Assembly (NCBI GenBank): GCA_009377795.1 | Contig: WHTJ01000001.1 | Coordinates: 1 to 64,000, forward strand | Length of the DNA stretch: 64,000 nt | Direction: 5' to 3' | Source: Propionibacteriales bacterium | GTDB lineage: Bacteria > Actinomycetota > Actinomycetes > Propionibacteriales > Nocardioidaceae | Shown: piece by piece, positions 18,701 to 23,553 of the stretch | Layout of the letters: each line of letters starts with the position of its first letter | How positions within the stretch are numbered: the first letter of the stretch is position 1 | Notes under the pieces: model-generated | What the model was told of the DNA's origin: nothing | The model's input: only the letters and a program-made list of their open reading frames with translations | Database searches by the model: none | Program-made: the position numbers and the translations under genes

Positions 18701-21166
<2,466 letters not shown>

Positions 21167-21188: not shown

Positions 21189-22640
21189 GTGACCGGCTCG
21201 GAGTACGGCGAGCGGCAACGGGCCTTCGGGGGTGCGTTCGGCTCGTACGACGGCTACGGTCCGCCGGACGCCACGATCGTCGTACTCCCGTCGCTCAGCT
21301 TCCCGGTGGTCGAGCTGCAGAAGATCACCGCGGTCACGTTCTACGAGCATCGGCTGCTGTGCCTGCTCCTGCTGCTCGCCGAGCCCGGTCGGCGCATGGT
21401 GTTCGTCAGCTCGATGTCGGTCGACCCGGTCGTACTGGACTACTACCTGTCGTTCCTTCCCGACCCCGAGGGAGCGCGGGCACGGCTCACCATGATGAGC
21501 CTGGGTGATCCCGCGCCGCATGGGCTCAGCCTGAAGCTGCTCGAACGCAGGAGCGTCCTGGACGAGATCCGTGCACTGGTCTCCGGAGCCAGGGTCGGCT
21601 ATCTGATCCCGTTCAACGTCACCGAGGCCGAGCGCCGGGTGGCCGACGTCGTGGGCCTGCCGATCTTCGGGCCGGCGCCGGAGCACGCCAGGCTGGGCAC
21701 GAAGACCGGGTCCCGCCAGGTCGCGAAACTGGCCGACGTCCCCGTGCTCGACGGTTTCGAGGGCCTCACCTCGATGCCGGCGGTCGACGACGCCATCGCC
21801 AAGCTGTGCGCGTCCGCGCGTCCCCCCGATGCCGTGGTGATCAAGCTGAACGAGGGCTTCTCCGGGCAGGGGAGCGCGATCGTCGACTGCCGGGACTTCG
21901 CACCACCCGCCAGTTCGAGCCCGACGATGTTCTGCGGCGACGGGGAGACGTGGAGCAGCTACGGCCAGAAGGTCCACCATGAGGGTGCCGTGGTGGAGCG
22001 CCTGCTCCGGGAGGATCTGGTGGCCTCCCCGAGTGTCCAGGTGCGGATCATGCCGGACGGTACGCCGGGGGTGATCTCGACTCACGACCAGGTCCTGGGC
22101 GGGGAGGAGAACCAGGTGTACCTCGGGTGTCGGTTCCCCGCCTCCGGCGAGTACCGCGACCTGATCACGGACTGCGCGCAACGCATCACCGACCACCTCG
22201 CCGAGGAGGGCGTGGTCGGCATGTTCGGGATGGACTTCCTGGTGCAGGCCGACGAGGGCCGTCCGCACGCCGTGCTGTCGGAGATCAACCTGCGACTCGG
22301 AGGTACGACGCATCCGTTCGTGATGGCCCAGCTGATGACCTGGGCGACGTACGATCCGGCGAGCGGCGAGCTGACCGACCCCGCCGGGCGCCCGGTGCAC
22401 TACCTCGCCTCCGACAACATCAAGTCGCCGGACCTGGTCGGCAGCGCTCCGGGCGTGGTGATCGACAGGCTGGACAAGGCCGGGCTCCTGTACGACCCGC
22501 GGACCGGCGTGGGCACCACCGTCCACCTGCTCGGTGCGTTGACCGATGACGGCAAGATGGGCGCGATGTGCCTCGCGCACAGCCTGGAAGAGGCGGAGGA
22601 GCTCTCGCGTGCGGTCATGAGGACCCTGAACGCGGTGTAG
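21189..22640 (+). CDS. ATP-grasp peptide ligase, PGM1-related
   Basis: 483 residues from GTG 21189, 22 bp after leuS. The N-terminal half (IVVLPSLSFPVVELQKITAV, MVFVSSMSVDPVVLDYYLSF) matches the N-terminal domain of pheganomycin ligase PGM1-type proteins. The C-terminal half is an ATP-grasp fold with AVVIKLNEGFSGQGSAI, then GMFGMDFLVQ and LSEINLRLGGTTHPF as Mg-ATP binding motifs. PGM1 joins a nonproteinogenic amino acid to a ribosomal peptide; the substrate here is unknown, and no precursor or biosynthetic cluster is adjacent. Other actinobacterial homologues are often encoded away from clusters. Confidence 0.8.
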   Translation: MTGSEYGERQRAFGGAFGSYDGYGPPDATIVVLPSLSFPVVELQKITAVTFYEHRLLCLLLLLAEPGRRMVFVSSMSVDPVVLDYYLSFLPDPEGARARLTMMSLGDPAPHGLSLKLLERRSVLDEIRALVSGARVGYLIPFNVTEAERRVADVVGLPIFGPAPEHARLGTKTGSRQVAKLADVPVLDGFEGLTSMPAVDDAIAKLCASARPPDAVVIKLNEGFSGQGSAIVDCRDFAPPASSSPTMFCGDGETWSSYGQKVHHEGAVVERLLREDLVASPSVQVRIMPDGTPGVISTHDQVLGGEENQVYLGCRFPASGEYRDLITDCAQRITDHLAEEGVVGMFGMDFLVQADEGRPHAVLSEINLRLGGTTHPFVMAQLMTWATYDPASGELTDPAGRPVHYLASDNIKSPDLVGSAPGVVIDRLDKAGLLYDPRTGVGTTVHLLGALTDDGKMGAMCLAHSLEEAEELSRAVMRTLNAV

Positions 22641-22707: not shown

Positions 22708-23553
22708 ATGCGTCGCGTCGCTTTGGTCACGGACTCCACGTCCATGCTGTCCGAGGATGTCGTCGCCGAGCACGGGCTCGTCGTCGTACCCCTGCAGGTG
22801 ATCATCGGGTCTACGCCGTACGCGGAGGGGAGCGAGACCAGCGCGGACATGGTCGCCGAGGCGTTGCGCGCCGGGCAGCCGGTGAGCACGTCGAGGCCGG
22901 CGCCGGAGGCGTTCGTGTCGGCCTACGAGAACGCCGCGGCGTCCGGCGCCGAGGCCGTGGTGTCGATCCACCTGTCCTCCGAGATCTCCGGGACGTTCGA
23001 GTCGGCGCAACTGGCCGCCAAGCAGGTCTCCGTCCCGGTCGAGGTCGTGGACTCCCGGCAGGTCGGGTTGGGCACCGGATTCGCCGTACTCGCCGCCGCC
23101 GAGGCGAGGGAAGCGGGCGAGCAGCCCGAGGGCATCGCCGGGGCCGCGCATGCGCGAGCGGAGGCGACCAGCGCGTTGTTCTATGTCGACACGCTGGAGT
23201 ACCTGCGGCGCGGCGGCCGGATCGGGGCCGCGGCCAAGCTGTTGGGGTCCGCGCTGGCGGTCAAGCCGCTCCTGCGGATCGAGGACGGACGCATCGTGCC
23301 GCTGGAGAAGGTGCGCACCACGGGCCGCGCCTTGAGCCGGATCGAGGACCTGGCGGTCGAGGTCGCCGGCGACCGGACGGTGGACGTCGGGGTGGCGCAT
23401 CTGGCGACTCCCGAGCGGGCGGAGGTCGTCGCGGCCCATCTGCGGGAGCGGATCGCCGGGGTGCGGGAGCTGGTCGTCGGGGAGGTGGGCGCCGTGATCG
23501 GCGCTCATGTGGGGCCCGGCATGGTCGCCGTGGTGGTCTCGCCGCTCGCCTGA
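22708..23553 (+). CDS. DegV-family fatty-acid-binding protein
   Basis: 281 residues. VALVTDSTSMLSEDVVAEHGLVVVPLQVII is the DegV N-terminus. STSRPAP, SIHLSSEISGTF and VDSRQVGLGTGF are the family's ligand-contact segments, and YLRRGGRIGAAAKLLGSALAVKPLL the central motif. DegV proteins bind a fatty acid and hand it to fatty-acid kinases or phospholipid synthesis. No fakA-like kinase is in the window. It lies directly upstream of the competence-type genes, with 165 bp between and no clear operon link. Confidence 0.9.
   Translation: MRRVALVTDSTSMLSEDVVAEHGLVVVPLQVIIGSTPYAEGSETSADMVAEALRAGQPVSTSRPAPEAFVSAYENAAASGAEAVVSIHLSSEISGTFESAQLAAKQVSVPVEVVDSRQVGLGTGFAVLAAAEAREAGEQPEGIAGAAHARAEATSALFYVDTLEYLRRGGRIGAAAKLLGSALAVKPLLRIEDGRIVPLEKVRTTGRALSRIEDLAVEVAGDRTVDVGVAHLATPERAEVVAAHLRERIAGVRELVVGEVGAVIGAHVGPGMVAVVVSPLA

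Follow-up and report, generated by a model that had tools for sequence, protein, structure and literature searches.

The gene between leuS and degV in the window (the whole stretch of DNA analysed, 64,000 nucleotides of a Propionibacteriales genome) encodes a patchily spread predicted ligase, which is not PGM1, not BesA and not a housekeeping enzyme. It is best explained as a horizontally acquired, stand-alone amide-bond ligase whose substrate would be of the amino-acid type or a small peptide and not a ribosomal precursor peptide, and we give this reading a probability of roughly 0.7. The tempting view of the gene as a PGM1 or a housekeeping function is thereby corrected. Bacteria contain many members of this ligase family, for almost none of which a substrate is known.

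The open reading frame is intact (Table 1) and is the sole match to the ligase in its own genome. It lies on the same strand as leuS, 22 nt beyond the leuS stop codon, and is separated from degV by 67 nt. On the upstream side the neighbours encode a P450, an NAD-binding protein and LeuS, and on the downstream side DegV, a ComEA-like helix-hairpin-helix/SLBB protein, a large protein in the position of comEC and a DNA polymerase III delta subunit; leuS and comEC are presumptive assignments, made from sequence and position. No biosynthetic cluster adjoins the ligase, and no precursor peptide or pheganomycin-type genes occur near it in ~15-34 kb of the window. The two flanking gaps are too small, so there is no room for an adjoining precursor peptide gene. 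A sequence-only reading of this DNA had described an orphan ATP-grasp ligase between leuS and degV lacking an adjacent precursor or cluster, and that description was borne out.

Table 1. Positions of the predicted ligase gene, its flanking genes and its conserved regions in the window. Residue numbers refer to the predicted protein.
Feature	Position	Strand	Basis
Predicted ATP-grasp amide ligase gene, 483 aa, GTG start	21189..22640	+	Open reading frame; Pfam, NCBIfam and PDB matches
leuS, upstream flank	18701..21166	+	Just 5' of degV in 21/29 relatives
degV, downstream flank	22708..23553	+	degV survey of the family
Pre-ATP-grasp region (residues 63-157), under Pfam cut-off	21375..21659	+	Pfam
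ATP-grasp core, IQCH-like (residues 253-386)	21945..22346	+	Pfam
Motifs SPS (280), HDQ (299), GCRFPA (313)	22026..22142	+	Kept in nearly all relatives and BesA
EINLR (365-369)	22281..22295	+	Alignments
GGTTHP (371-376)	22299..22316	+	Window protein and most relatives; VGPSH in BesA
PGM1_C domain (residues 424-476)	22458..22616	+	Pfam

The Pfam models passing their cut-offs were ATP-grasp_IQCH (PF24923; E 4.5e-15, score 56.2 against a cut-off of 27), which is the best Pfam match of the core, PGM1_C (PF18105; E 9.7e-14, 51.1 against 22.5) and ATP-grasp_3 (PF02655; E 3.9e-6, 27.5 against 23.2). A PreAtp-grasp match (E 0.0012) stayed below its cut-off, so the PGM1-derived C-terminal domain is recognised over threshold and the N-terminal pre-ATP-grasp domain under it. 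Invariant columns of a 30-row alignment include K172, K219, E270, Q301, D349, E365, N367 and R369; we take K172, K219, E270, D349, E365 and N367 to be those that ATP-grasp enzymes are expected to have, and EINLR presumably supplies the expected metal/ATP-binding Glu and Asn. Across 86 aligned rows, E[IVL]N[LA]R is present in 84 and GG[TS][TS]HP in 69. Domains and conserved residues agree in identifying the predicted ligase as a member of the ATP-grasp superfamily, of the PGM1_C type, and its intact motifs suggest an active enzyme. A single-sequence structure model reached a pLDDT of 38.9, too low for use.

ATP-grasp enzymes use ATP to activate a carboxylate via an acyl-phosphate, which is attacked by an amine with release of ADP and phosphate. 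In the window ligase, ATP would most likely be bound in the ATP-grasp cleft and the carboxylate phosphorylated there, and attack by the amine would give an amide bond, ADP and phosphate. By analogy with BesA, its substrate is most likely a small peptide or an amino acid, and glutamate or a similar amino acid is a plausible candidate; a gamma-glutamyl bond might be formed, which is a guess. Tagging of a protein or peptide, as the sequence-only reading had suggested, is a bare possibility. The gene falls in a clade whose members are lone genes, mostly from other classes of the phylum; it would have been gained horizontally and inserted between leuS and degV, where co-transcription with leuS is probable. 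The protein family, the intact motifs, the tree position and the absence from the junction in relatives are observed, and we infer the catalysis, the horizontal origin and the co-transcription.

To place the junction in its family, degV was sought in 41 family genomes and matched in 38, and loci were obtained for the window and 29 relatives. In none of the 29 does the ligase lie within 1.5 kb upstream of degV. leuS lies within this distance on the same strand in 21 (~26-311 nt away in 13) and is not seen there in the other eight. As leuS and degV are paired in relatives that lack the ligase at this site, the flanks represent an old neighbourhood and the ligase a local addition. In eight relatives (L171, L175, L176, L178, L182, L185, L188 and L190) the leuS-degV gap measures ~570-1010 nt, which is enough for another gene, so the junction may accept insertions often.

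The distribution of the ligase is uneven. At E <= 0.001 a match is found in 9 of 61 genomes of the family, 20 of 147 of the order, 45 of 394 of the class and 49 of 198 of the phylum. Many of these hits are weak and partial, and probably represent other ATP-grasp enzymes. Matches above 100 bits, counting the window's own genome, occur in 8/61, 16/147, 28/394 and 29/198 genomes, respectively. The closest proteins (50-53% identity) come from families f62 and f51, which belong to other classes. Within the order that includes one f51 genome, a match at E <= 0.001 occurs in 14 of 16 genomes and is strong in 13. Six matches came from plasmid records, including one from Nonomuraea (44% identity) and two from S. 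cattleyicolor (30.7%). Among phage sequences the ligase had no match, and a contig scan gave one short match, to Prevotella.

An 86-row tree, from which two fragments (111 and 162 aa) and duplicates had been dropped beforehand, places the window ligase in a 29-row clade (SH-aLRT 100) made up of all f51, f62, f89 and f81 rows and ten f20-type rows (nine from f20 genomes and one from the Nonomuraea plasmid). Its nearest neighbours in the tree are f62 proteins from another class (50-52% identity), and no other sequence of the window's own family or order in this tree falls inside the clade. The same clade is recovered with support of 98/98 in a 42-row tree; for this tree and the AU test below, five long-branch rows were removed and 42 were kept from the other 81. 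Ligase copies split over two frames were seen at L017/L108 (G018) and L033/L034 (G147); these are possibly broken genes or sequence errors. The junction survey and the tree position together point to a horizontal gain, which is the most likely origin of the ligase, with vertical descent followed by many independent losses as the formal alternative. Base composition was also considered as evidence of transfer, but the GC (68.8%) and GC3 (90.9%) of the ligase gene resemble those of its neighbours and give no sign of a recent event.

The surroundings of the relatives were compared using genes called by a purpose-written script, not an established gene finder, and limited to genes of at least ~50 aa. 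Clustering of the neighbours within six genes of the ligase revealed no co-inherited cluster shared with the window locus, and none that spans f51, f62 and f20. In f20 loci the ligase stands beside an M20 peptidase, a Bmp-type ABC transporter and a D-Ala-D-Ala carboxypeptidase-like protein; two f62 loci have an M20 peptidase, a globin and a JmjC protein near it, and several f51 loci an M23 peptidase protein and three subunits that we take to be nuo-like from their sizes and gene order. An M20 peptidase adjoins the ligase in all ten f20-type loci and lies near it in two of three f62 loci, but these peptidases belong to different subfamilies, so the association is only suggestive. Small MMPL and pirin clusters that recur in single loci across clades look incidental. 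A polyamine pathway, considered for the agmatinase and FAD oxidoreductase beside some f51 members, was rejected as the other neighbours do not fit; the FAD oxidoreductase scored best against an aminophosphonate oxidoreductase model, below its cut-off.

In a sister clade the ligase is the last gene of a four-gene operon, preceded in order by a hybrid histidine kinase (two GAF, HisKA, HATPase and REC domains), a single REC protein and a protein joining REC to an adenylate/guanylate cyclase. This clade holds 20 rows of the 86-row tree, and the operon is complete in 17 loci, mostly with 4-nt overlaps (for example L094:3922-9252). In L143 and L052 the cyclase gene is seen upstream of the ligase and the sequence then ends, while L093 (L093:9172-9336) keeps the ligase and its 17 kb contain no match to the kinase, regulator or cyclase. 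No description of an ATP-grasp ligase arranged with a two-component system and a nucleotide cyclase was found in the literature searched. By tying such a ligase to these signalling genes, the operon provides a direct handle on the role of the family and is a more interesting lead than the window gene itself.

In 13 loci a further protein is encoded just after the ligase, as at L098:7475-8113 (-), and where its start is intact the N-terminus reads WYVAYGSNL or a close variant (YGTNL, YASNL). YGS is given as a motif of the gamma-glutamylcyclotransferase fold in one paper (PMC12756093), and the YGSNL protein may have a fold of this kind. It has no match in Pfam, NCBIfam or the PDB. Comparison with GGACT members by hhalign gave E 0.0024 at a probability of 12%, against E 0.038 for the best of 31 control clusters, and is a suggestive hint given that the members used (from 23 of 30 loci) were chosen by a pattern containing YG[ST], which favours the match. 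The position of this protein just 3' of the ligase would fit a gamma-glutamyl bond, again as a hint.

These operons raise the question of whether the window ligase is itself linked to signalling, making a small gamma-glutamyl-type conjugate that serves as a signal or is under signal control, with the window copy lacking a dedicated kinase and cyclase. The 17 operons favour such a role, as does L093, a clade member that retains its ligase in a locus with none of the other three genes. A homologue of the YGSNL protein is also found in the window's genome, on another contig away from the ligase (L199:1483-1992). However, no hybrid histidine kinase, response regulator or REC-cyclase genes lie directly upstream of the window ligase, and the REC-cyclase has no full-length match in that genome, where matches cover the REC part or the cyclase part only. 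The window ligase also falls outside the operon clade: forcing it together with 13 rows of that clade, to which ligases of the window's own family belong, costs 157.6 log-likelihood units and is rejected (p-AU 1.89e-6) for a clade that was defined after the first tree. With the YGSNL protein unmatched in the databases as well, we consider a signalling-linked role for the window ligase unlikely. Still more speculative, and rather improbable, is a broader scheme for the sister clade, in which the ligase would write a gamma-glutamyl conjugate, or one like it, under the control of the GAF-containing hybrid histidine kinase, the response regulator and the REC-cyclase, and the YGSNL protein, as a cyclotransferase, would erase it. 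On this scheme the lone window ligase would form conjugates of that class free of such control, and the wider family would consist of regulated small-molecule amide ligases. If true, actinobacteria would use conjugates in a new kind of signalling.

Equally doubtful is a PGM1-type peptide ligase, whose acceptor for a nonproteinogenic amino acid would be a ribosomal peptide encoded elsewhere in the genome. The PGM1_C domain speaks for it, as does the recovery of PGM1 (3wvq) at E 8.9e-11 by a 30-sequence family profile, which places PGM1 in the same superfamily. In that search 3wvq ranks beside another peptide ligase (8ynd), and its best stretch covers profile positions 98-263 of 491. With the window protein alone (phmmer against the PDB), no PGM1 chain is found at E <= 1, where the only matches are a GAR synthetase and the BesA structure 8yi6, the latter being the only full-length one (E 5.9e-47, residues 26-479). 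BesA is far nearer, and there is neither a cluster nor space for a precursor beside the ligase. The alignment used for the profile search included BesA, which makes the BesA E-value of that search a product of its construction and the single-sequence search the independent result. The earlier claim that the protein matches PGM1 over both halves is thus not confirmed, while the looser description 'PGM1-like' stands at the level of the superfamily, through PGM1_C, and fails as a specific tie, with BesA as the nearest characterised enzyme.

A conserved housekeeping tagging enzyme tied functionally to leuS, in translation or leucine metabolism, is highly improbable and largely refuted: the same-strand leuS stop 22 nt away invites it, and the sequence-only reading had seen a gene positioned like a housekeeping gene in a conserved process, but the ligase is at this junction in 0/29 relatives, strong matches are confined to 8 of 61 family and 16 of 147 order genomes, and the relatives' surroundings are wholly different.

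The stand-alone amide-bond ligase that we favour can be set against several known systems. Its core (21945-22346) fits the model of the eukaryotic IQCH ATP-grasp domain (PF24923) better than other ATP-grasp models. This likeness is one of Pfam profile alone, and the bacterial ligase family may share ancestry with IQCH, a eukaryotic IQ-motif sperm protein; a search of the literature pairing IQCH with ATP-grasp found nothing. A 'peptide ligase PGM1-related protein' of Robbsia andropogonis (WP_320534214.1) is 27.6% identical over 94% of the query, sits among SIS-domain, SDR, aldehyde dehydrogenase and amidinotransferase genes and forms a very long branch in the tree; a literature search for 'peptide ligase PGM1-related' likewise found none, and one on the Pfam families brought up only papers with unrelated titles. 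The ligases of the kinase/cyclase operons (e.g. L094) have the same domains as the window ligase and ~35-40% identity to it, but they belong to another clade and their signalling operon is absent from the window's genome. PGM1 (PDB 3wvq, 3wvr), named as the pheganomycin peptide ligase in PMC8939145, has the PGM1_C domain and the overall ATP-grasp superfamily in common with the window ligase, and differs in escaping the single-sequence search and in that no pheganomycin-type genes adjoin the window ligase.

BesA (L-propargylglycine--L-glutamate ligase), which belongs to an alkyne amino-acid cluster, is homologous to the window ligase as an ATP-grasp enzyme over its full length and shares its SPS, HDQ, GCRFPA and EINLR motifs and its PGM1_C domain. 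The two S. cattleyicolor plasmid records are taken to carry BesA itself, and the L153 protein is read as BesA because it agrees with the 8yi6 chain. The NCBIfam BesA model (NF042917) matches the window ligase at E 2.8e-49, but with 168.1 bits against an equivalog cut-off of 750, so the window ligase is not BesA. Identity between the two is only ~30%, and the tree puts BesA in a separate clade, together with rows from f21 and f7 and apart from the 29 rows around the window ligase. The refutation envisaged in the sequence-only reading, a grouping with some other enzyme whose substrate is defined, thus applies by half: the window ligase is nearer to BesA than to PGM1, yet stands outside the BesA clade. 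BesA carries VGPSH where the window ligase has GGTTHP, and because this position differs the substrates of BesA are not transferable to the window ligase.
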